This document shows, piece after piece, positions 11 to 12,080 of a stretch of DNA of 48,048 nucleotides (positions within the stretch are counted from its first letter, which is position 1; each line of letters begins with the position of its first letter). Source of the stretch: a virus; the IMG/VR virus record IMGVR_UViG_3300050821_003361, positions 1-48,048 of that record. One strand, 5' to 3'. Below the pieces are notes generated by a model. The model was not told the DNA's origin and made no database searches. It was given only the letters and a program-made list of their open reading frames with translations. Both the position numbers and the translations under genes were made by a program.

Positions 11-3000
11 CAGGCTCGCGCCTCTGGGCTCGACCATGACGCCGCACTGACGCAGAGTCTGAAGGCTTCGGGGGTCGATGCCGCGACGGCCGGGCTGATG
101 GGTCTGGCTCCGGGAGTTCCGATCCTTAATGCTCTGAAGAGGCCAGTCACCGACGCGATGGTGAAGATGGGTCTTGTAATTCCGGGAATCGGAGTTGGTG
201 GTGAATACGCTCATGCGGCAGTCACAGGGCAAGACGTTAGCCCTGACGACTTGATGAATACGGTTGTCGGGACCGCTGGTATGGGCGTCGGGCTAACGGC
301 GGTTCATGCGCTTGGAGCGCGAGCCGTCGGAGGGCGGGCGCAAGTCCCCGCGACTGACGAAGCCACAAAAGCGGCATTCGATGCGACGGTTCCGAAGACT
401 GACCCCGCTCCGGTCGAGAGTCAGCCGGTTATCGTTATGGCGTCAGAAACTCGGCCGACGGTCGAAGGGATTCCAATTCCGGAGGCGCCAAAGTATCCGG
501 AGCCAAAACCGACGTTCTTCAGTCGGGTGCAGCAGGTCGTCGACGAGAAAGGGCCCGAAAGCGCGAGCCCTCAACAGTGGCTTGCAACGATACGCAACGC
601 TCCCGGCGTCAAATCTGAAGAAGTCGAGGCGCTCAATCTGCCTCAGTATCTGGCGGATCGGTCTGGCAAAGTCTCCAAGCAAGACCTTCTGGCGCATATT
701 GAGGAGAATCAGGTTAGAATCGAAGAAATTCAATCGGAGGATAAAGTCCTCGGCGGTGGAACACTACAAGGAGCTGAGACGCAGTATGGTAACTATCGCC
801 TCCCCGGCCCCATCGCCAGATATGGCGAATTGAAGCTTTATCTTCCACCGAAGACTGGCGATGTGCTATTCGAGGCGCCGCATTTTGGTGAGGAGAATCA
901 GAATCTGCTTGCGCAAATTCGATACACGGATCGAATTGATCGGGATGGCGCCCGCACGCTTTTCGTCGAAGAGATGCAGAGTGATTGGCATCAGATCGGG
1001 CGAGAGGAAGGGTACAAAGGAAAAGCCCCTATCGATCCTGAAGTTCTTAAGAAGGCCAGACAAGATCGAATAGATGCACGAAGTCAGCTCTATGAGCATT
1101 TGCGAGAAAGGGGTCAATCTCCTACGACAACCCAAAATGTCATAGATAACCTCGAACACGCAGTCGAGCAGCGTGATGTCTATAATGATGGCGGGACCGA
1201 TTTAGGGAAATTGATAGGCCAAACTCATCGTGTCTTTGGGCAGTACGCAGGCGACCTTGCACACGATTATGCAGAGCGATATGCCGAAGTCTCAAAACTT
1301 CAGGATCAGTCTGTAGCCGGCGTTCCCGATGCCCCATTCAAGTCCTCCTGGCCCGATCTGACCTTCAAACGGATGCTGCGATACGCCGCGGATAATGGAT
1401 TTCAGCGCATTGCCTGGACGAATGGGGATCAACAAGTCGCTCGATACCCCGGACTGAATGAGAAGCAGGCCGCTGGCCTTCGGGAATTCTACAACAAGAC
1501 CGTCCCAAGATTGGCGGATTCGTGGGCCAAACGTCTGGGGATGGGTCGAGGGGAAACTCGATTTCAAGAGAACGAGAAGTGGTGGGAAGACCGCGCCGCT
1601 GGCACTCAAAAACCCGTCCGCTATGTCGACGTTTCTCCCGCCGTCGCCACTCGAATCAAGATGGGGCTTCCTCTCTTCTCTGAAACTCGCGGCTTCAGAA
1701 TTCGAAACCTAACTGAGGGCCTCGACGAAACCCAAACGAAGACAATCAATTTTCTGACGAACAAATTGACGAGCGTCTTCAAAGACCTTGCGGGGCAGAT
1801 GGATATTGAGCGCCCGATTCGGATAGAATTCCACAGAGAGCTAATTCAGCCGAAAGAGGGCCCGCCAGCGGACGGTCTGATGCGAATGGATGCCTCGGGC
1901 TATACGATCAAAGTCAGTCTGGGGGCGCACGCCACACCAGAAGGGGTCTATGCGACCATCGCGCATGAATTCGGCCATATAGTGATGTTCGACAAGCTCG
2001 ACAAGGCGCCGGACGTTGTCGTTAATAAGATCGTGGCGGCCTATACGAAGTGGAGAGAGGCCCGGCCGGAGAATGAGACATTCAAGCAGTTGATCTCCCG
2101 TCGAGACGATGCGATCAAGAATTTCTATAATTCGGAGCGGCTGGCAGAAATCCCAATGCTCTCGATGACGCCGGAGCGGCAGAGATATTGGGCCGGATTC
2201 GAAGAATGGTTCGCTGAGCAAACGAGCCGGTGGGCTACTACGTCTGCGAAGCCAATGAATGTTCTGGATCGCTGGTTCGGCACTCTGGGTGCGAGGGTGC
2301 GCGCTGTCGTCTCCGCGTGGCGCGAGCGGCTCGGTCTGCCGACTGCCGGACTGCCGACTCTCGAGATGAAATCCTGGCTCGACAGCCTGATGACGACGGC
2401 GCAGCCATTTCTTGCCGATCGAGTTGCGACGAAAGACTGGAGGACTCAGCGAGCCAGTCAGCTCTCGATCGATCGAGACGGGAGTCCGGAAGTGCAAGCG
2501 GTGGCGCAAGACCTCGGCACACAGAATTCTCGAGACATGCTCGTCCGCCTACTGGCGCACGAGGTTCCGCCGCAAGCTGCTGCTGACGCTGCCCACGTCG
2601 ATCGGATCAACAAGGCTTATGAGTGGCTCATCAGTCTGCCGCAACTCTCTGAGATCAATCCGCATATCAAGCCGCTTCAGTATTATGCCGAAGGCATTGG
2701 GCTATTCAATGCGAAGATTCGCCAGGATATGGAGCGCCCTCTTGCGACGCTGAGCGCATGGCGGCGGCTGAAGGGAGTTCAGTCTGACGCGGTGGCTCGG
2801 CTGATCGATGACTGGGCGAACATGCGCTATAGAACGCCAGATGAGATCACAAATAAAGTCCGCCGGATGCCGACCGCTGACGAATTCAAGAAGATGGTGG
2901 CGGACAACAAGGTCTCCGATGCGGGTTTTGAAGTCTTCAAGAAGAGCGTTGCCGATCTGAATTATCGTCTGGACGATTTGACCAGGATTCTCAAGTCGAG

Positions 3001-5323
3001 AGCGGGAGGGATTTCTGATGCCGTCAAGCGAGCCGAAGCAATCGCCAGTATTGACCGAATGGTGGCGGATTTGCGATCCGCTCCATATTTCCCCTTCTTG
3101 CGCCACGGCGACTTCACCGTTACAGTCTACGGACCCGATGGCGCCGTCAAGCACTTTGAGCGATTCGATACGGCCCGGCAGCAAAAGTCTGGGGCAGATC
3201 GTATCGGAGCTCTGGTCGGAGCCGGAGACAAAGTGCTGCCCGGATTCCTCAGCAAAGACGTAAAGCCGCTGATCGGGCTGCCTCCGGCGATGCTGGATTT
3301 GCTTGCCGATACGCTCAAGCTCAGCCAGACGCAGAAGGACGCGCTGGCTCAGCTAAAACTCGACCATTCGCCCGAACAGAGCTTTCTCCACCGGCTGTCG
3401 AATAAGAACTATACGCCTGGCTATTCGAAAGACTTCATGCGAAGCTATGCGAACTACTGGTTTCACTCTTCGCGATACTTCGCCCGAGCAGACTGGTCAG
3501 ATCGGTTTCGTGGGTGGATTCAAGAGACGAGGGCGCTTCGCTATAGCCGTGACGACGCCACAAAGATCGACCAGATTGCGAACTTTATGGGGAAGCATTT
3601 CGATTATGTCATGGACCCGAAGGCGGACTTCGCTGCCCTTCGCAGCTTCATCTTTGCGCTTCGGCTCGGCTTCAGTCCGACGACTGCGACGCTCTACCTC
3701 ACACAGACCCCCCTCGGGACGTATCCGTGGTTGGCTTCGGCCTTTGGCGACGCGAGGGCGCTCGCCGCGATGGGGAGGGCGAGTGCTAGACTGTCGAACT
3801 ATTACAAGTCGAGTTCGGTTGAGCAACTTTCCGCTCCTCATCTGAAAGGGATCGCTGAGGCGATGCGGCAGAAGGTGCTCGATGGGGGGGTGGCGCCGGA
3901 ACTGGCTGCGATCTCTGAGGGCCGGAACCTGACGGGTGGGTTCGCAAGAGGGGCGGCGGCGAAAGCCTGGACCTGGTATCAAGAGGCCGGAGGCACACTT
4001 CTACATCTGGCGGATTCGTGGAACCGCCGAATCGCTTTCGACGCCGGCTGGCAACTTGCAATGGACAATCCAGATGCGAAATACATTTCGAGGGCGCGTG
4101 AAAGGAATCCTCAAGAGTATCAGCGACTACTTTCTGAGGGTTGGAGCCCGCAGGAAGCGTCGGCGTTTGTGGTTGGAAAGCACACTGTCGAAAGCACGCA
4201 CTTCGTATATCAACGAAGTCATCGACCGCAACTGATGTGGGGGAAGGCGAGCGCGCTTCTGATGTTCAAGTTCTGGCAGCAGAATATGCTTTTTACGCTC
4301 TGGAACTACCCGAGCGTTGCGGCTCGTTCCTTATTAGTTATGGGAGCGATGGGTGGGTTGATGGGGCTACCTTTTGCGCAAGACTTCAATGGGATTCTGA
4401 AGGCGATCGGATGGAAGTTGTTCAATAAGGATTGGGACCTCGATCGCGAGACCCGTCAGTATGTGGTGGATCACTTCGGCCCGCAGGGGAAAGAATTAGC
4501 CGATAGTCTTCTGCATGGGCTTAGCCGGAATGGGATGGGTATCCCAACAGTCTTAGAAGCCCTCGGTCATGCTGTGGGCGCGCAAATTCCATTTCCGAAC
4601 GTAGATCGAAGTGGGGCGATCGGCTTAGGTGATGTTCTGCCGGCTAATGCGGGAGAGCTTTGGGGTCCGCATAAAGACGTCAATTCGGTCATTGCGAAAG
4701 AATCCCAGTCGGTGTCCGGTGCGGCGTTCGGCTTCTGGTTCGACGTCTACAAGATGATGAGTGACTCGCAGCTCTCCTGGACTGACGCCAAGCGGTATGA
4801 GCAGGTCGCCCCGCATTGGATGGCGAACGCTTCTCGTGCGTATCGCTGGTATTCTGAAAGGCGCGAGCGCGATCGAGGAGGCAATACCGTTGTTAAGTTC
4901 GACCCGAACGACACTACTCAGATGATGGAGATTCTTGCCAGAACCCTTGGCTACAACCCGACACGAATGACGCAAGCCTATGACCGAAATTCGGCGGCTC
5001 GAGAAGTCGAGACGTATTGGGATCTCCGCCATGAGGGCCTGCTGCGCCAAGCATGGGAGGCGAAGAAGTCGGGAGACAAAGAAGAATACAGCCGAGTGGT
5101 GTCAGCAATCCGGTCATTTAATGGACAGCTCCCAGATGAAGCGAAAACCAAAGCGATCAGCGCCGACCAGATGCGACAGTTCTTCGAAAGTCGGGCGCGT
5201 GCTTCCGCGCTGGTGGAAGCGGGCCTCCCGGCGCAGAAGAAGAATATTCCTATTCAGAAGTCTATTCAGCGGATTTACCCCGAGGCGGAGACAGTCGGTC
5301 GGCAGAGGGTGACGACACCTTAG
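1..5323 (+). CDS. Giant polyvalent virion protein with zinc metalloprotease site, C-terminal ~1770 residues (continues from 47491)
   Basis: The reading frame is open from base 2. The first ATG is at 98, but the true start is at 47491 across the contig join, so the full protein is 1956 aa. Residue numbers here count from the ATG at 98. Residues about 230-540 resemble large-polyvalent-protein-associated (LPD) regions, with an EEMQSDWHQ motif and a later MLRYAADNG...WTNGDQQ stretch. A zincin motif HEFGH lies at 623-627, and the glutamate-rich EEWFAEQ at 702-708 is the likely third zinc ligand region. A hydrophobic, Gly-rich segment near 1410-1440 could cross a membrane. Family knowledge: such proteins in podophages and conjugative elements are packaged and delivered with DNA. 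Inference: an ejected internal virion protein with protease activity. It is the last gene of the late arm and converges on the minus-strand gene at 5320. Confidence 0.85.
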   Translation, partial: NYQQARASGLDHDAALTQSLKASGVDAATAGLMGLAPGVPILNALKRPVTDAMVKMGLVIPGIGVGGEYAHAAVTGQDVSPDDLMNTVVGTAGMGVGLTAVHALGARAVGGRAQVPATDEATKAAFDATVPKTDPAPVESQPVIVMASETRPTVEGIPIPEAPKYPEPKPTFFSRVQQVVDEKGPESASPQQWLATIRNAPGVKSEEVEALNLPQYLADRSGKVSKQDLLAHIEENQVRIEEIQSEDKVLGGGTLQGAETQYGNYRLPGPIARYGELKLYLPPKTGDVLFEAPHFGEENQNLLAQIRYTDRIDRDGARTLFVEEMQSDWHQIGREEGYKGKAPIDPEVLKKARQDRIDARSQLYEHLRERGQSPTTTQNVIDNLEHAVEQRDVYNDGGTDLGKLIGQTHRVFGQYAGDLAHDYAERYAEVSKLQDQSVAGVPDAPFKSSWPDLTFKRMLRYAADNGFQRIAWTNGDQQVARYPGLNEKQAAGLREFYNKTVPRLADSWAKRLGMGRGETRFQENEKWWEDRAAGTQKPVRYVDVSPAVATRIKMGLPLFSETRGFRIRNLTEGLDETQTKTINFLTNKLTSVFKDLAGQMDIERPIRIEFHRELIQPKEGPPADGLMRMDASGYTIKVSLGAHATPEGVYATIAHEFGHIVMFDKLDKAPDVVVNKIVAAYTKWREARPENETFKQLISRRDDAIKNFYNSERLAEIPMLSMTPERQRYWAGFEEWFAEQTSRWATTSAKPMNVLDRWFGTLGARVRAVVSAWRERLGLPTAGLPTLEMKSWLDSLMTTAQPFLADRVATKDWRTQRASQLSIDRDGSPEVQAVAQDLGTQNSRDMLVRLLAHEVPPQAAADAAHVDRINKAYEWLISLPQLSEINPHIKPLQYYAEGIGLFNAKIRQDMERPLATLSAWRRLKGVQSDAVARLIDDWANMRYRTPDEITNKVRRMPTADEFKKMVADNKVSDAGFEVFKKSVADLNYRLDDLTRILKSRAGGISDAVKRAEAIASIDRMVADLRSAPYFPFLRHGDFTVTVYGPDGAVKHFERFDTARQQKSGADRIGALVGAGDKVLPGFLSKDVKPLIGLPPAMLDLLADTLKLSQTQKDALAQLKLDHSPEQSFLHRLSNKNYTPGYSKDFMRSYANYWFHSSRYFARADWSDRFRGWIQETRALRYSRDDATKIDQIANFMGKHFDYVMDPKADFAALRSFIFALRLGFSPTTATLYLTQTPLGTYPWLASAFGDARALAAMGRASARLSNYYKSSSVEQLSAPHLKGIAEAMRQKVLDGGVAPELAAISEGRNLTGGFARGAAAKAWTWYQEAGGTLLHLADSWNRRIAFDAGWQLAMDNPDAKYISRARERNPQEYQRLLSEGWSPQEASAFVVGKHTVESTHFVYQRSHRPQLMWGKASALLMFKFWQQNMLFTLWNYPSVAARSLLVMGAMGGLMGLPFAQDFNGILKAIGWKLFNKDWDLDRETRQYVVDHFGPQGKELADSLLHGLSRNGMGIPTVLEALGHAVGAQIPFPNVDRSGAIGLGDVLPANAGELWGPHKDVNSVIAKESQSVSGAAFGFWFDVYKMMSDSQLSWTDAKRYEQVAPHWMANASRAYRWYSERRERDRGGNTVVKFDPNDTTQMMEILARTLGYNPTRMTQAYDRNSAAREVETYWDLRHEGLLRQAWEAKKSGDKEEYSRVVSAIRSFNGQLPDEAKTKAISADQMRQFFESRARASALVEAGLPAQKKNIPIQKSIQRIYPEAETVGRQRVTTP

Positions 5324-5664
5324 CTGACCTCGATTACTTCCAGATTTGCCTTTCTGGCACGACTTACCATATCCGCAGTTCCGCGCCCTCCTGGAAAAGC
5401 AACTACCACTTCTGGTTTACCCTCATCAAGCATCTGTTGATTTCGAATAGAACCAGCAGATAATCCATAAGTCTTCCAGTCTGCTGGAAATCTCGCAATC
5501 TCTATTCCTTTTTGCTTCGCCCAAAACATTGCGAGAGTGTCTGCTCCACGAGCACACCCACTGATGATACAAGAAATCGGACGAAGATCGTTTATCGCTC
5601 CTAGCTCTTTAGAGAGTCGGTCAAGATGTTGATATGTCCTTCCACCACAGACTAGCACCCGCAT
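5320..5664 (-). CDS. SLOG-superfamily protein (DUF2493/YspA-like)
   Basis: 114 aa. The start at 5664 is chosen because GGAGG sits 5 nt upstream; a longer in-frame extension begins inside the neighbouring gene and has no ribosome site. The N-terminus MRVLVCGGR and the later GCARGAD and AFPGGRGTADM motifs form a Rossmann-like nucleotide-binding fold typical of the DUF2493 branch of the SLOG family (related to DprA and LOG). The ligand is unknown; SLOG domains often bind nucleotides or their derivatives. It is the last gene of the leftward arm, has its own TTAA-N7-TTAA operator and leader just upstream, and its stop codon overlaps that of the giant late gene. Confidence 0.8.
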   Translation of the reverse strand: MRVLVCGGRTYQHLDRLSKELGAINDLRPISCIISGCARGADTLAMFWAKQKGIEIARFPADWKTYGLSAGSIRNQQMLDEGKPEVVVAFPGGRGTADMVSRARKANLEVIEVS

Positions 5665-5680
5665 GAGGTCCTCCTTTTTT

Positions 5681-5710
5681 GGCGCCCTTAATCGCCGGTT
5701 AAGCGCCCTC
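5681..5710 (-). promoter_or_regulatory. TTAA-N7-TTAA operator-like element ahead of the SLOG gene
   Basis: TTAA at 5688-5691 and 5699-5702 are separated by exactly 7 bp and flanked by GGGCGC/GGCGCC arms. On the minus strand it is followed by a short A-run and GGAGG, matching the leader of the gene at 34780. It lies between the DUF3987 stop and the SLOG start. Confidence 0.6.
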
Positions 5711-6910
5711 TTTAAGCCTGACGGCATCCTGATTGTTCTTCGTCGTCTTCGACAGCAGCCCGCCACGGACGGCGGCAAGGACAGCTTCGCCGAAGAGTTT
5801 CATCGGCATATTATTCATCGAGAGGGTCCAGAGTTCGTTTACTGTCAAGATTTTGTGCGTCTTCACCAGTTGGACAATCTCGGCGATGTGGCGGGCCTCG
5901 TCGACTGAGCCGATCGACTCGAACACCTTTATCATATCCGGTTCTATCGAGGAAATAATCGCTTCGGCTTCTTGTAGATCTCGCTCCTCGATGATGAGTT
6001 TATCTGACTTTGCGGCGGCAAGGACAATCGCGAACTTGTGGATGTGGGTTTGCTTCCTAGAGATATATCCACCGTAGCGATCAGAAGCCATATGAGGAGC
6101 ACGACTACCATTCCAGTGAGAAGCATACCAGTTACGACCCCAATTACGAGCAGCAGAACTGAGCAAATAAGGGCCGCTAAGAGTAGAAATAAGTTGAAGG
6201 TCTTCCACCAGTCTTGCTTCATGGCTTTGGTACTCCGAAAGGGGGATCACTTCGTCAGGGTAGGGCACGAGGTGGCGTTTCTTGTCACCATAGACGAAAA
6301 CTATCCGGGAAGTTAAGCCTCCACCAATCATTTGAATAGGGAAGTGGGTCTTCAGCCACGCTGGCGTGGTCGCTCCGATTATGTTCAGCCAGGGGTTGCG
6401 GACTTCGACCTGGCCTTGGGTCTTCGTTTTGTGGATGAAGCTGTCCTGCTGCCCTTCCCACATCCGGATTAGGAACGAGAGTAACTTGTCGTCGTCCATC
6501 GTCAAGAACGTCCCCAATTCGCCAATGGTAACGGTCAGGGCAGACATTGGGATTGCCGCTTCCTCCCCGGACGGTAAGTAGTATTTCACGAACTCCGTCG
6601 CCGTGGAGAGTGAGTCCGCGAGTGCTTGCCAAGTCATCGATTCCGGCCCAAATGCGATACCGGGAATTTTCGATAACAATCTTGTTCCGATTGAGATAGA
6701 AGTAGACTTCGCAGCCACCCCAGGTGGTCCCACGAGAATAATGTAGAAGTTTGGTGTCCATTGGAATTTCCTCATGTCTAGCCATACTCGCCTCCTGAGG
6801 GCGCCAGCGATGACGCTCACCCCAGTCCAGAAATGGAAAGAGTCAGGGGACTCAGAGTCCCGAGTGTATTCCATATATGCTCTGAGCCAGTTTGTGAAGT
6901 GACGTGCCAC
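5699..6910 (-). CDS. DUF3987-type P-loop ATPase, helicase/primase-like
   Basis: 403 aa from a GTG start inside a TAATGTG junction with the upstream polymerase fragment. The early YTRDSESPDSFHFWTG stretch (residues 14-30) looks native to the family, so this start is preferred to the ATG 12 codons later. The variant Walker A GPPGVAAKST is at 61-70; acidic strands with GELGTFL and an IGATTP motif follow. DUF3987 proteins are replication-associated ATPases often found beside phage polymerases. No other replicative helicase is visible, so this is the best candidate for helicase/primase functions. The exact activity is inferred from the neighbourhood. Confidence 0.75.
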   Translation of the reverse strand: MARHFTNWLRAYMEYTRDSESPDSFHFWTGVSVIAGALRRRVWLDMRKFQWTPNFYIILVGPPGVAAKSTSISIGTRLLSKIPGIAFGPESMTWQALADSLSTATEFVKYYLPSGEEAAIPMSALTVTIGELGTFLTMDDDKLLSFLIRMWEGQQDSFIHKTKTQGQVEVRNPWLNIIGATTPAWLKTHFPIQMIGGGLTSRIVFVYGDKKRHLVPYPDEVIPLSEYQSHEARLVEDLQLISTLSGPYLLSSAARNWGRNWYASHWNGSRAPHMASDRYGGYISRKQTHIHKFAIVLAAAKSDKLIIEERDLQEAEAIISSIEPDMIKVFESIGSVDEARHIAEIVQLVKTHKILTVNELWTLSMNNMPMKLFGEAVLAAVRGGLLSKTTKNNQDAVRLKEGA

Positions 6911-6911
6911 A

Positions 6912-7676
6912 TTAGGCCACTTGAAGCTCGAGGTTGATTTCGCGACAGTCGCCCCAACTCTTGTCCGAAGCGGAGAGTTTCCAGGGGATAATTAGTGGGG
7001 GGTCGTAGGGAACGGGAACATGAAGCGCAGAGTAGATTTCGCGAAGGCGGTCCTCATGGTAATACGTCTTCGGGATTTGGAAGACAAGAGAGTCATGGAC
7101 CTGAATTAGAATCTCTACCCAGGGGCATCTCTCTTCGAGTTGGAGGGCGCCTCTAAAACATGTCTCCGCCACAGTGCTTTGCGGAATCCATGCAAGGGCT
7201 TCAGGAAGCAGTCCATCGATTCGATCGAAATAGATAATGCGGTATCCAAAACGATTGCTGGCCGTACGGGACCGAAATAGTTCACTCTCAGTTCGCCGGT
7301 GCCAATCACGAACTCCAGGGTGGTGTTTGAACCAATAAGATTGGAAGCGCTCAGCGAAAGAAGTTTGCCATCCGAACGTAAGAGCCAGGGTCCGAGCGGA
7401 GGCGATGTAATTCGTGCCATGAACTGCGGATTTGAATTGTTGGCGGAGCTTGTGGCGCTTTTGTGTGTCATAGGTCTGCCATATGTCTAGGCCGATCATT
7501 TCGACGGCATTATCTGTATGCAAGTCAAAAGTACCTTTTGCGGCGTCCATCAGACTCTGGTCGTTACACTCTTTCGCGACGACGAGAGCGTCCGCGCCCT
7601 TAAGGTCGGCATCCAGGATGATGTAGCCGGGGTCCGGAACGAAGAGCTTCCGGATATTAGGAAGAACGACTGTCAT
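6912..7676 (-). CDS. Family A DNA polymerase, C-terminal fragment (motifs A, B, C)
   Basis: 254 aa. It begins LPNIRKLFVPDPGY, sequence that in intact phage family A polymerases directly follows NLQNIP. Motif A is LDADLKGADA with catalytic Asp at 22; motif B is the KLRQQFKSAVHGTNY region (about 76-90); motif C is VHDSLVF with Asp195. The motif-A position normally held by Glu is Asp or Ala here, as in some phage homologues. The start ATG overlaps the stop of the upstream gene (ATGA). The matching N-terminal fragment ends at 8704, three genes upstream. All catalytic palm residues sit in this fragment, so activity presumably requires assembly with the other piece. Confidence 0.9.
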   Translation of the reverse strand: MTVVLPNIRKLFVPDPGYIILDADLKGADALVVAKECNDQSLMDAAKGTFDLHTDNAVEMIGLDIWQTYDTQKRHKLRQQFKSAVHGTNYIASARTLALTFGWQTSFAERFQSYWFKHHPGVRDWHRRTESELFRSRTASNRFGYRIIYFDRIDGLLPEALAWIPQSTVAETCFRGALQLEERCPWVEILIQVHDSLVFQIPKTYYHEDRLREIYSALHVPVPYDPPLIIPWKLSASDKSWGDCREINLELQVA

Positions 7677-8044
7677 TTGCGCTCACGTATCGGCGAGAGA
7701 AGATAGCCATAGTTGGACGACGTATAGACGACAAAGGGCATCTTGAGTGCCTTCAGTCTGACGCGGATTCGAGAAATGTGAACGAAGATATTCGACCGCT
7801 GATTCTCCGGGCCGCCATAGTTGCCCCAGAGATCAGTTGAAAGACTGTCGATCGAAACGACTCGGCCAAGTTGATTGAACATCGAAATAAAAGCGATTGC
7901 GGCTTTTCGCTCACCGTAGAATATCTCTTTTCCATCCCAAAAGACAAGGAGACGGCTTCGATCGACGATCAAACGTTTGTCTGAGGCAAGAGGACTCTGG
8001 CAGAGGGGGCAGAGAATTTCACCTTCCGGTTGAGCCGAAACCAT
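7673..8044 (-). CDS. Winged-helix (OmpR/PhoB C-terminal type) DNA-binding protein with a CPLC motif
   Basis: 123 aa from ATG 8044, which overlaps the dUTPase end by 26 nt. A CPLC pair at residues 12-15 suggests a metal knuckle, although no second CxxC is present. Residues about 30-118 match the fold of response-regulator output domains: an acidic LSTDLWG helix, then a recognition helix NIFVHISRIRVRLK and a C-terminal beta hairpin YTSSNYGYLL. No receiver domain is attached. It lies between the two polymerase fragments. It is a candidate phage transcription regulator and one possible reader of the TTAA-N7-TTAA sites; that link is inference. Confidence 0.7.
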   Translation of the reverse strand: MVSAQPEGEILCPLCQSPLASDKRLIVDRSRLLVFWDGKEIFYGERKAAIAFISMFNQLGRVVSIDSLSTDLWGNYGGPENQRSNIFVHISRIRVRLKALKMPFVVYTSSNYGYLLSPIRERK

Positions 8045-8546
8045 GAGTTCCGCGACTGGTCGGTGGTAGGTCCTCAACCTCCGTGAAGGGGAACTCTTCT
8101 CGTCTGATGAAGATAAGCTGAGCGATCCGCTGTCCATGTTCGACATAGGCGGCATTGAAGCCTCCATTAAAGAGGAGAATTTGAATCTCGCCGGTATAGT
8201 TTGGATCGATGAGGCCGGGAGAGTTCGCGACGAAAAGTGGCGGGTTCGACGCTGCCATTCCAGATCGGCTGAGGACGAGGGTGCAGAAGCCATCTGGCGG
8301 TCGAATAGCCCACCCAGTCGGGATTGAAACTGTCTGCTGGCTACTGACGAGCCGTTTTGATGGACGGCCCGTTTCAGACATAAGACAAGCGGCGATGTCG
8401 AAGCCAGCCGCGCCGGGGGACGAAAGCAGAGGATATTCGGCGGCCGGATGAAGGCGCTTCAGTCGGATGTGCTTCGTTAGATCGACTGGTTCGGATACCA
8501 GAAGCCTTCCGTATTGGTCGCGCCGTTCTTCGATTTCACCGGGCAT
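8019..8546 (-). CDS. dut: dUTPase (dUTP diphosphatase)
   Basis: 175 aa, trimeric dUTPase family, hydrolysing dUTP to dUMP and pyrophosphate. All five motifs are visible: AAGFDIA, SRSGMA, GLIDPNYTGEI, GQRIAQLI and the C-terminal RGTHGFGSTG arm. The start at 8546 is chosen because GAGGAA lies 6 nt upstream and it overlaps the preceding 53-aa gene (TAATG); longer in-frame versions have no ribosome site. It sits between the two polymerase pieces, one of which carries a uracil-DNA glycosylase-like domain, so uracil exclusion or removal appears to be a theme of this module. Confidence 0.93.
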   Translation of the reverse strand: MPGEIEERRDQYGRLLVSEPVDLTKHIRLKRLHPAAEYPLLSSPGAAGFDIAACLMSETGRPSKRLVSSQQTVSIPTGWAIRPPDGFCTLVLSRSGMAASNPPLFVANSPGLIDPNYTGEIQILLFNGGFNAAYVEHGQRIAQLIFIRREEFPFTEVEDLPPTSRGTHGFGSTGR

Positions 8547-8707
8547 TATTTTCCTCGCGGATAGACTGGTTGACATGAGCAAGGCCAGAGGAGAAGCCAA
8601 CTCGGGTGGCCTCCTCGATCTTGTGCGATTAGCGGACGGCGCGCAAACATCCATCCGAGGCGGAGATGGTCTTCGAGATAAGGATCCCAAGCATAGATCA
8701 TCGTCAT
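8546..8707 (-). CDS. Coupled 53-aa microprotein between the polymerase fragment and dUTPase
   Basis: 53 aa starting MTMIYAWDPYLEDHL, rich in Trp and Arg, with no recognised domain. Its ATG overlaps the stop of the polymerase N-fragment (ATGA) and its stop overlaps the dUTPase start (TAATG), so it is coupled at both ends. That geometry is the main evidence that it is real. Function unknown. Confidence 0.6.
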   Translation of the reverse strand: MTMIYAWDPYLEDHLRLGWMFARRPLIAQDRGGHPSWLLLWPCSCQPVYPRGK

Positions 8708-10440
8708 TCTTCATCCCCTTTCGGAATGTTTTGCAGATTCGTTCCTCGCCAGAAGGCATTCTGGCTAGAAGACCAGCGGAAGGTCTCTGTTCCCGCTGGA
8801 TTGAAGGAGCATTTCATCCGGCCGTCTGGCTCGAGTTCGGCGTTGACGAAAGTGTTGTGAAAGACTCCGATGCTTCTAGAGATCAAAATCAAATCGAAGA
8901 TCGGCGCGATCTCTGGAAACTTCGTCTTTAGCGTTTCGAGTGCCTCGTCGTCCACCGTGACGCTTCCGGTCTTGCGGCTTCGTTGCGGCGGCAGGCCGAG
9001 CCTGTCGTAGAAAAGAGTCTGTTGCTGTTTTGGTGACGAGTACCACGGCTTCTTCGAGCTCTTCACGAGCGATTCCGTCAATGAGTTCGGAATGATCGTA
9101 GTAAGCCGTCTTTGTGTATCCGACAGCGCAGCCGACAACTCGAACCCGTATTGTGACCGTCGCTTCGTATCGATTCGAATGCCTCGGTTCATCATTCGAA
9201 GGGCGAGAGCGGCTTTTTTCTTTTCCCATTCCCATTGCTCCTTCTGGCCGAGATCGACTATCATCCGACGTAAGACTGTGGCGCACTCATAAGTCCGAAG
9301 CAAGTCTTCTGCGTTGTAACGCAAGTGCTGAGTCTCGTCGGCGTTCAGGTCCCATTCTTTGTTGTCGTCTTTCCAGAAGCGGTGAAAGCGACAATAGAGG
9401 GAAGAAAGATAGTCAAGCCCCTTCGGTGTCCCTGGGAATAAAAGATGATGTGCAAGCATCGTGTCGAAATCACATCTCGGACTGACGCCTTCATAATGCT
9501 GGATGTATTGGGTATCGTAGAGGAAATTTTGACCTTCGATAAGGATATTTGGATGTGAGAGGATTCGCCTAATGAGACGCGCAAGATGAACCTCCTCTTG
9601 TGGTCGCCAGTACGAGTCGAATTGGCGTCCGGGCCGAAGACGAACGAAGGGAATCGTAAGCCCGACGCGATCTGTGCCGAAGCCTATACACGTCATCAGC
9701 CCGCGCGCCGTCTCGATGTCGCAGACGAGCCGGACCGGAGCGATTTCAGCTTGAATTAGCCAGCCTTCTAAACAGATGATTGCATCTTCAAAGGTTGGAG
9801 GCGCCAGAATATACGGCGCCCACTTGTCGATCCAGTCATTTTCGAGTGCTTGCTTTACTCTTGTCTTCAGGTCGTGGACTGTCACGGCACGAAGGTACCA
9901 AGCTCGAAGGATCGCAGCCGGGTGAATTACGGGCAATAGTTTCGAGTTTGAGTCGGTTGAGGTCAGCATTGAACCTCGCCACGATAGAATCCCTCCCGGC
10001 ACAAGCCTTGAAACACCGTCGATTTTCGATCGGATCGAAGAAATCGAGCATAAGCCCTCCGAAAGTGCCCAGAGAGCATAGTTGCCATGTGCAATGACAA
10101 GCTTCGGCCTTATCACTCGAAGCTGGCTGTGAAGCCGATCGATTTCGGTCTTTGCGAAAGAAGAAGGATGAAGGCCACGCCATTTCGGTCGTCCTTTGGT
10201 GTTCTCTTCGAAGAAGAGTTCGGTCTCATTTCCATTCGGCTTAGCCGATATTACGTTCGTCTTAAAGACGAGGGCGGAGCGGATTCTACTCTCTTCCAGA
10301 ATTCGGTCTAGTTCTTTTCCGCTCTGGCCGACGAAAGGTCTCTGGGCTTGCTCTTCCTCAGAGCCCCACGACTCACCGACCAGAACGATGTCGGCGTTCT
10401 TGGGGCCGGAGGTTCCGAAGAAGAGATCGCGGTCTGTCAT
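8704..10440 (-). CDS. UDG-like domain + 3'-5' exonuclease + N-terminal part of family A DNA polymerase
   Basis: 578 aa. Residues 1-190 resemble family 4/5 uracil-DNA glycosylases: GESWGSEE at 22-29, PFVGQSG at 35-41, TNVISAKP at 61-68 and HPAAILR at 173-179. Residues about 235-395 are a DEDDy exonuclease: DIE at 241-243, N305 and D309, Y375 and D379. The polymerase thumb and start of the palm follow, ending at TNLQNIPKGDEE and a stop. That endpoint is a loop just before motif A; the missing part is the gene at 6912-7676. The start overlaps the upstream 26-aa gene (ATGA). It should provide proofreading and template handling; polymerisation needs the second fragment. Confidence 0.9.
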   Translation of the reverse strand: MTDRDLFFGTSGPKNADIVLVGESWGSEEEQAQRPFVGQSGKELDRILEESRIRSALVFKTNVISAKPNGNETELFFEENTKGRPKWRGLHPSSFAKTEIDRLHSQLRVIRPKLVIAHGNYALWALSEGLCSISSIRSKIDGVSRLVPGGILSWRGSMLTSTDSNSKLLPVIHPAAILRAWYLRAVTVHDLKTRVKQALENDWIDKWAPYILAPPTFEDAIICLEGWLIQAEIAPVRLVCDIETARGLMTCIGFGTDRVGLTIPFVRLRPGRQFDSYWRPQEEVHLARLIRRILSHPNILIEGQNFLYDTQYIQHYEGVSPRCDFDTMLAHHLLFPGTPKGLDYLSSLYCRFHRFWKDDNKEWDLNADETQHLRYNAEDLLRTYECATVLRRMIVDLGQKEQWEWEKKKAALALRMMNRGIRIDTKRRSQYGFELSAALSDTQRRLTTIIPNSLTESLVKSSKKPWYSSPKQQQTLFYDRLGLPPQRSRKTGSVTVDDEALETLKTKFPEIAPIFDLILISRSIGVFHNTFVNAELEPDGRMKCSFNPAGTETFRWSSSQNAFWRGTNLQNIPKGDEE

Positions 10441-10517
10441 TTGAAGTCCACGAATAGCCAGAGACAGAAGGCGAAAGTCGCGAGTGCGACGACAGGAAGC
10501 CAGTGCCAGTCGATCAT
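10437..10517 (-). CDS. 26-aa single-pass membrane microprotein
   Basis: Sequence MIDWHWLPVVALATFAFCLW followed by six more residues, essentially one transmembrane helix. The ATG overlaps the stop of the methyltransferase gene, and its own TGA overlaps the polymerase start (ATGA at both ends). Such tight tiling is unlikely for a random frame. Function unknown; it could anchor replication factors at the membrane or act on the host envelope. Confidence 0.55.
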   Translation of the reverse strand: MIDWHWLPVVALATFAFCLWLFVDFK

Positions 10518-11878
10518 AACTCTTGCACCGAGGGTTCGACAGTCGGGGCGGGCGCCGTCTTGAGTTTGCCAGTCTTCGCCCGAACGAGGGCGAGATTATA
10601 TGCGCTCTCGTCTAGTTCGATCCCGAGCGCGCGTCGGCGGCTTTCGCGAGCTGCGTCAAGAGATGAACCGCTCCCACAACAGGGGTCAAGTACGAAATCG
10701 TTCGGAAGCGTGGAAGCCTCGATAAGCTCTCGAAGAAGAGAGACAGGCTTCTCGGGTCCATAGTCTCGGTCCGCTCGGCTAACTCGGTTATGGCGGAGGA
10801 TGTCCACCGGACTTGTGATAAGTCCCCGCTTGTTTTTTGTGGCGAAGAAGATGAGTTCGTAGGTTCGTCGGAAGCCTTGTCTCCCCCAGGGGGCGAGACC
10901 TTCTGAGTCACTTTTGGCCCAAATGATAGGAGTTCTGAAAGGGGTCCAGCCAGCTTGGGCGGATATGGTCCTGAGCCAGTCAAAGTGATCGATGTCGGTG
11001 AAGATGAAGATGTTCGCTCGATTTTTACACGTTCGAAACCCTTCGGAAATAATACAAGACAAAAGGGCTCGCGCTGCTTCTGGAGTATCCTCGTAATTAT
11101 GATGATGGACTGTGCGAGCTCGAAATCCTCCACCTCCTGCTGAGACTCCATATGGAGGATCACAGAGAATGAGGTCGAATAAGTCTGAGTCAAGTCCTTT
11201 GAGGATGATTGCGGCGTCTCCATGACGAACCTCGATGTTGGACGCCGATGTGGCGTCGGCTTTTGCGGACTGTCGCCTGACGTGTTCGGCAGCGAAAGCT
11301 GCCTCTTCCTTCTGAATGACTAGCTGAAAGGCTTCACCAGAATTTCTGGCTTTCGATATAGCCGGGTCGGCTAGGTGAGGAGCAATGATTTCAGCCTCTC
11401 GTATTCGTTGAGCGAGGCCAGCGACGGAAGCCGTCGCGCCCTGAGCGACAAATTCTCTCGCCGTGTCTGTGAGCGTCTGGTTAGGACGCTCGGCCTTCCG
11501 CATCGCGTGAGATGCCGCAATAGCACGGATTCGATCTTGCCAATCCAAATCTTCACGGAAGATGTTCTCCTCTAGCTCGGCATCGAACAAATCGGCTGGA
11601 GATAGGTCCGTAAGCCGAGTTACCGGAATCTCTCCAGGGAGGAAAGTCTCCCCATCGCACATGAAGAATTCTTTTGCGTCGGCAATGGTGTCGAGGGCAC
11701 GGAGACGGCGCTCGCCAGCCACTAGATGATACTTCTGATCGAGTCCCCAAGAGACCACTGGTGGGTGAAGCAGTCCCCGTGCAAGAATGGATTCTTTTAG
11801 CGAGGCAAGCTTCGCCAGGTCGATCTCTCGTCGCTGCCTCTGGCCGATTAGAAGGTCAGCCCGTTGAATTCGGAACAC
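10514..11878 (-). CDS. ParB-like nuclease/DNA-binding domain fused to DNA methyltransferase
   Basis: 454 aa from a GTG at 11878 with GGAGAA 5 nt upstream; a longer ATG-initiated frame overlaps the preceding gene and lacks a ribosome site. The N-terminal ParB/Srx fold carries GERRLRAL at about 55-62. The C-terminal amino-methyltransferase has the catalytic DPPY at 239-242 preceding the SAM-binding DPCCGSGSS at 397-405, the order typical of beta-type N4-cytosine/N6-adenine enzymes. Target site unknown. It probably protects phage DNA or marks it for replication or packaging control. The C-terminus EPSVQEL matches the shared C-terminal motif of this phage. It is followed without gap by the 26-aa gene. 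Confidence 0.88.
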   Translation of the reverse strand: MFRIQRADLLIGQRQRREIDLAKLASLKESILARGLLHPPVVSWGLDQKYHLVAGERRLRALDTIADAKEFFMCDGETFLPGEIPVTRLTDLSPADLFDAELEENIFREDLDWQDRIRAIAASHAMRKAERPNQTLTDTAREFVAQGATASVAGLAQRIREAEIIAPHLADPAISKARNSGEAFQLVIQKEEAAFAAEHVRRQSAKADATSASNIEVRHGDAAIILKGLDSDLFDLILCDPPYGVSAGGGGFRARTVHHHNYEDTPEAARALLSCIISEGFRTCKNRANIFIFTDIDHFDWLRTISAQAGWTPFRTPIIWAKSDSEGLAPWGRQGFRRTYELIFFATKNKRGLITSPVDILRHNRVSRADRDYGPEKPVSLLRELIEASTLPNDFVLDPCCGSGSSLDAARESRRRALGIELDESAYNLALVRAKTGKLKTAPAPTVEPSVQEL

Positions 11879-12080
11879 TGGGTTTCTCCGGGAGAATGAC
11901 GTAACCCGCGATGATCTTGCTCTGAACTGAGCCGAGTTGAGTGCCGTCGGCTCGAAAGAAGTCCCACCACTTTGGTCCGGCTTCGATACGGCGAGCATCA
12001 AGAAGGCTAATTGTTGCCAGTCCTTGAGGGGTGGAGATATCAGTGAAGAGCGCGACGCCATGAGGACAGAGGATTGTCAT
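11856..12080 (-). CDS. Hypothetical 74-aa protein
   Basis: Starts MTILCPHGVALFTD at 12080; a 12-residue longer version from 12116 is possible, and neither start has a strong ribosome site. No domain recognised. Its 3' end contains the ribosome site of the ParB-methyltransferase gene, with a 23-nt overlap, implying coupled expression. It has alternating beta-like hydrophobic stretches and a WWDFF aromatic patch. Confidence 0.6.
   Translation of the reverse strand: MTILCPHGVALFTDISTPQGLATISLLDARRIEAGPKWWDFFRADGTQLGSVQSKIIAGYVILPEKPSVPNSTG

Follow-up and report, generated by a model that had tools for sequence, protein, structure and literature searches.

The DNA analyzed here, referred to as the window, is the 48,048-nucleotide IMG/VR virus record IMGVR_UViG_3300050821_003361. 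On its minus strand, a family A DNA polymerase is divided between two open reading frames (ORFs), an N-terminal and a C-terminal fragment with other genes lodged in the gap between them, as the initial annotation had claimed. The features are summarized in Table 1. The N fragment ends in NLQNIPKGDEE with its stop codon at 8706-8704, while the C fragment begins at an ATG at 7676 and starts M-TVV-LPNIRKLFVPDPGY. The exonuclease motifs DIE, GQNFLYD, and YNAED are legible in the N fragment, and the two ORFs, N part first and in single copy in the record, jointly hold the whole enzyme. The 381 positions of the Pfam DNA_pol_A profile are shared out between them (N fragment 30-135, C fragment 140-346), and in a tiling onto Klenow (1dpi) the N-fragment profile reaches chain position 361 before the C fragment takes over at 365, with three residues missing. 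The earlier view that nothing of the polymerase was lost holds. Sequence, profiles, and models recover the motif A Asp, the motif B Lys/Tyr, the motif C His-Asp, and the palm-fingers-thumb fold of family A. An AlphaFold2 (AF2) model of the C fragment alone is compact, with a predicted local distance difference test score (pLDDT) of 96, and its fold matches Pol I-type family A polymerases in their palm-fingers part. No second C part of a family A polymerase occurs in the 48-kb record, nor does an intact second family A polymerase (an intact second polymerase was named at the outset as a finding that would refute the claim), and the window ORFs scanned, a subset of all ORFs, include no family B or other polymerase.

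Asp29 of motif A aligns with the position of the Klenow Glu (steric gate). The Asp at what we take to be the Klenow E710 position and the His at the presumed F762 position are conserved in the clade, and these active-site variants may alter sugar discrimination. The uracil-DNA glycosylase (UDG)-like domain matches the profile of type 4 UDGs (E 7e-21), enzymes with four Fe-S cysteines. The match begins 29 residues from the start of the chain, however, and the Cys of KCRPP has not been retained.

In the gap, the three genes with overlapping starts and stops of the initial annotation were found again, with reservations about one of them. Every junction between the N fragment, the gap ORFs, and the C fragment overlaps, leaving the gap fully coding. 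The dUTPase is complete, matching PF00692 over its whole length with all five conserved motifs of trimeric dUTPases legible (AAGFDI, SRSGMA, GLIDPNYTGEI, RIAQLIF, and RGTHGFGSTGR). The winged helix-turn-helix (wHTH) ORF overlaps the dUTPase by 26 bases and leads by an ATGA into the C fragment; it scores 25.8 bits against a Pfam cut-off of 26.2 (Trans_reg_C), and its homologues occupy the polymerase gap in eight other loci, one of them a weak match. Searches that included Pfam and PHROG gave no homologue of the 53-codon ORF, which may not be a real gene. Promoters and terminators in the region showed no excess over shuffled sequence.

Table 1. Features of the split polymerase locus in the window.
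Feature	Position	Strand	Description
N fragment of polymerase	8704..10440	-	578 aa; Pfam UDG, DNA_pol_A_exo1, DNA_pol_A
UDG-like domain	about 9892-10407	-	N fragment; Pfam UDG; profile match to type 4 UDGs
3'-5' exonuclease	about 9259-9582	-	N fragment; Pfam DNA_pol_A_exo1
Thumb and initial palm segment	about 8713-9048	-	N fragment; Pfam DNA_pol_A; Klenow profile match
NLQNIP motif	8722..8739	-	From translation; break 5 residues further on
53-codon ORF (putative gene)	8546..8707	-	ATGA overlap with N-fragment stop; TAATG overlap with dUTPase start
dUTPase	8019..8546	-	Complete, 175 aa; ATG 8546, stop 8019; PF00692 E 7e-22, PHROG 135 E 3e-36
Winged-helix (wHTH) protein	7673..8044	-	N-terminal CPLC pair (zinc-ribbon-like); Trans_reg_C E 1e-5, below cut-off
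C fragment of polymerase	6912..7676	-	254 aa; remainder of palm plus fingers, with motifs A, B, and C; PF00476 profile 140-346
Motif A, D24-LKGA-D29	7590..7607	-	Across 53 split C fragments, D24 invariant and D29 >=90% conserved
Motif B / O helix, K82...H86...Y90	7407..7433	-	K82 invariant; H86 and Y90 >=90% conserved (same 53 fragments)
Motif C, H194 D195	7092..7097	-	Invariant across 53 split C fragments
DUF3987 primase/helicase-like gene	5699..6910	-	PF13148, PHROG 14296; directly downstream of C fragment

Relatives were collected from IMG/VR, GenBank phages, and GTDB genomes, and duplicates were removed. Since only the best 80 matches per search were taken, the counts of relatives are lower bounds and the true numbers are larger; IMG/VR has roughly 350 candidates. 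Both polymerase parts were present in 108 distinct contigs, 61 of them split and 47 intact (individual contigs are given by our L numbers). Rather than the single oddity it was first taken for, the split recurs within a large phage lineage: 58 of the 61 split contigs break at the site of the window, within the same few residues, and the tail past NLQNIP is 3-8 residues long in 58 of the 59 split loci (window included) and 15 in the remaining one. The three other contigs, Caulobacter phage Kuura (L005, 3565-6969), L071, and L087, break near the boundary between exonuclease and polymerase, and in Kuura two small ORFs lie inside this break. A C half is found downstream of every N fragment followed by more than 0.9 kb of sequence, and the halves always follow each other in this order on one strand. 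Between them, the extremes are an overlap of 4 bases and a gap of 2.9 kb, and in eight relatives (L030, L053, L064, L072, L097, L126, L132, and L181) the split is bare, with a gap of -4 to about 50 bases and no insert. A start codon overlaps the stop codon of the N fragment in 36 of the 59 split loci.

Alignment to intact relatives, proposed earlier as a check, places a variable linker at the break, 5-51 residues long (median 12, 43 measured); the longest was measured in L083 (3210-5705). In a structural model of an intact relative, whose fold matches Pol I with a Z of about 33, no part of the polymerase domain is modelled with less confidence than this linker (block pLDDT 53). Sequencing or assembly error was rejected, because several arrangements turn up again in a different metagenome (L010/L011, L025/L027, and L028/L029) and 58 other contigs have the same break, which likewise excludes chance. 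Two contigs show further irregularities. The C fragment of L030 (3591-4352) falls short of aligned relatives by about 9 residues after motif A, which could reflect an error or degradation of this copy, and L107 (3336-5741) has an intact junction yet an in-frame stop in the upstream part (a frameshift or a further split).

The dUTPase and wHTH genes of the gaps were counted by hidden Markov models (HMM). A dUTPase lies inside the gap in 25 of the 59 split loci, window included, a few of them short or weak, and just upstream of the polymerase in two further split loci; the 47 intact relatives have none in their flanks, which mostly cover 3-4 kb on either side. A ribonucleotide reductase of about 570 codons stands between the halves in three related contigs (L148:6718-8421, L179:6726-8450, and L182:7706-9424), forming one sequence cluster and confirmed by Pfam in two of them. 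Further cargo includes DUF3310, a MazG-like pyrophosphatase, a methyltransferase, a Lon C-terminal domain, a staphylococcal-nuclease homologue, and an HNH endonuclease, while many inserts match no known family. An ORF in the gap of L183 (7496-7726) resembles Phd/YefM antitoxins just below the Pfam cut-off. Gene-cassette insertion, one of the origins suggested in the initial annotation, is supported as a recurrent process at the split site.

In a quick maximum-likelihood tree of 103 sequences, from which columns filled in fewer than 30% of rows (such as the linkers) had been dropped, the split label changes at least 14 times, nine of these forced by well supported branches, against a mean of 34 for shuffled labels. 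A single origin of the split without reversals, that is, one split clade, was rejected by the approximately unbiased (AU) test (p about 4e-36), which does not separate repeated breaks from refusion. The split state is polyphyletic, and splits and/or refusions therefore recur. The window falls in a supported clade of ten members, all split, within a clade of 29 having one intact member. One supported trio comprises an intact polymerase (L184), a bare split with an ATGA overlap (L064), and a split with 1.15 kb of genes (L059), and sister phages carry unlike cargo (L025/L026, L091/L129, and L142/L143). We infer that the break came first and the cargo later.

Both halves of split pairs are under purifying selection (pN/pS 0.16-0.42), and their N and C distances correlate with r 0.66 (permuted maximum 0.22), compared with r 0.77 in intact polymerases. 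The C fragments of split relatives are 35-62% identical to that of the window and retain the catalytic residues. We consider it very likely, judging from these sequence data, that this is a naturally split replicative polymerase, whose separately translated chains assemble non-covalently and in which a flexible loop admits both the break and the cargo; the earlier statement that two chains must assemble is thereby upheld as the best reading. Separate translation of the two ORFs from a common operon transcript would give chains that fold together into one active family A polymerase, the N chain bringing the UDG-like domain, the proofreading exonuclease, the thumb, and half of the palm, and the C chain the rest of the palm and the fingers with the catalytic aspartates. 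The break sits in the loop between NLQNIP and the strand preceding motif A, where it should cost little, because unsplit relatives have a variable linker there. After the C half has acquired a start codon, more inserted genes could be tolerated at the junction, and phages of the lineage have repeatedly placed genes there, most often dUTPase and other genes of nucleotide metabolism, which by their position would be expressed in step with the polymerase. The frequent stop/start overlaps fit such translational coupling. A further-reaching version appears quite unlikely: the dUTPase or ribonucleotide reductase would assemble co-translationally with both halves, making nucleotide sanitation a physical component of the replicative enzyme, and the split would be maintained because it allows such partners to be exchanged.

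Several points weigh against the two-chain polymerase and the proposed order of events. The ATGA overlaps are partly automatic, because GAA/GAG codons before TGA create them, and where the split is a bare ATGA, some fused chain could still arise by a -1 frameshift. The deep support of the quick tree is weak, so that gains are indistinguishable from refusions, and loss of cargo from never having had any.

The initial annotation had offered RNA splicing as the alternative to assembly: the gap would be, or derive from, a gene-carrying self-splicing intron, and a single chain would result. Group I introns do favour phage polymerase genes (PMC11878797), an intron was proposed for the split polymerase of phage MEP401 by its authors (PMC10580990), and the gap of one relative (L014) encodes an HNH endonuclease. 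However, Rfam gave no match to group I or II intron RNA of the described classes in the window at the gathering score, and no relevant one at E up to 1, nor any intron in 12 loaded split relatives. The gap is moreover wholly coding with overlapping genes, the bare splits are too small for an intron, and the breakpoint stays fixed while the cargo is unrelated between phages, all of which makes splicing highly improbable. Protein splicing by a split intein that joins both chains has a published case in a phage family B polymerase, MIJ3 (PMC6892783), but is scarcely credible at a junction flanked by only five residues after NLQNIP and four before LPNIRK, where no intein half fits.

It is also very unlikely that the phage uses the host enzyme and that the fragments are decaying or being repurposed. 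Gene splitting can be an early step of decay, but here both halves are under purifying selection, the catalytic residues are invariant, and the split is common to phages with C fragments as divergent as those described above. A different matter is the origin of the arrangement, since homing endonucleases that made the break and brought the cargo before being lost would be compatible with two assembling chains. Homing nucleases are reported to sit at boundaries of genetic exchange in phages (PMC10448857), and in L014 (7715-8176) the tail of the HNH ORF, GGSTGL, repeats the GFGSTGL of the dUTPase that precedes it, as if it had been inserted into the dUTPase end and duplicated it. Yet this is the only HNH endonuclease found in the gaps of the 58 other split loci, the window's gap has none, and bare splits occur in several clades. 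We regard a homing origin as unlikely, and the fixed remnant of a mobile element that was initially suspected finds no support as the general cause.

The DUF3987 gene downstream of the C fragment is also the downstream neighbour of the intact polymerase of Microcystis phage Mel-JY34. Upstream of the polymerase, the window encodes a fusion of a ParB-like domain and an N6/N4 DNA methyltransferase (10514-12061, minus strand), and annotated relatives likewise have a methyltransferase or ParB-like gene there. Farther away are a 1741-codon ORF (98-5323, plus strand), the C-terminal half of which resembles giant phage proteins including DarB-like antirestriction proteins (PHROG 10089), and a YspA/SLOG-family protein (5320-5718, minus strand; PF10686, E 6.5e-19).

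The split arrangement is thus real and recurrent, and two assembling chains are very probably its product. Repeatedly within one lineage, a core replication enzyme changes between single-chain and two-chain forms at one exact loop and takes foreign genes into the break, which makes it a natural experiment on the origin of multi-subunit proteins, and because intact, bare-split, and gene-loaded versions coexist, the evolutionary steps are directly testable. The split site also marks a place to cut polymerases for two-part (switchable) enzymes. Gene callers may overlook or misname such halves, and PHROGs includes families resembling them.

Among known systems, Mel-JY34 (PP438425) and ctMlz233 (MW202489) have a UDG-exonuclease-polymerase with near full-length homology at 35-40% identity and the same domain order, but their polymerase is a single ORF with a linker where that of the window is split. 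Vibrio phage vB_VspS_VS-ABTNL-3 (MF497422) has homologous fragments with the same break, one ORF between them, and a methyltransferase upstream (PVS_29/PVS_28/PVS_27), whereas identity is only about 30-34% and the insert is an unrelated 184-aa protein. In the literature searched, the coverage of which was incomplete, we found no paper on the split of VS-ABTNL-3 and, beyond MEP401, no description of the lineage's split, its recurrence, or its cargo. A split family A polymerase has been reported in most genomes of the group of the OM43 phages MEP401 and MEP402 (PMC10580990). Like the window, these have two polymerase ORFs with a small ORF between and a break between NLQN and motif A, but they belong to another lineage, with an exonuclease-polymerase without UDG-like domain and no dUTPase. 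MEP401 (L187:6111-8221) is split within about 10-15 residues of the window's place, its break lying about 10 residues nearer motif A, after ...IKTLFLSRYGE, and from the sequences this appears to be convergence. In SPO1, Bastille, and their relatives, the phage polymerase gene (PHROG 17) is likewise interrupted by gene-carrying DNA (PMC11878797), but those phages remove an RNA intron and make a single chain, whereas no intron is detectable in the window. Finally, group 2.2 jumbo phages have the catalytic core of DNA polymerase III alpha divided between two proteins that are proposed to restore the enzyme together (PMC7824862); unlike in the window, these belong to another polymerase family and are encoded by distantly located genes.

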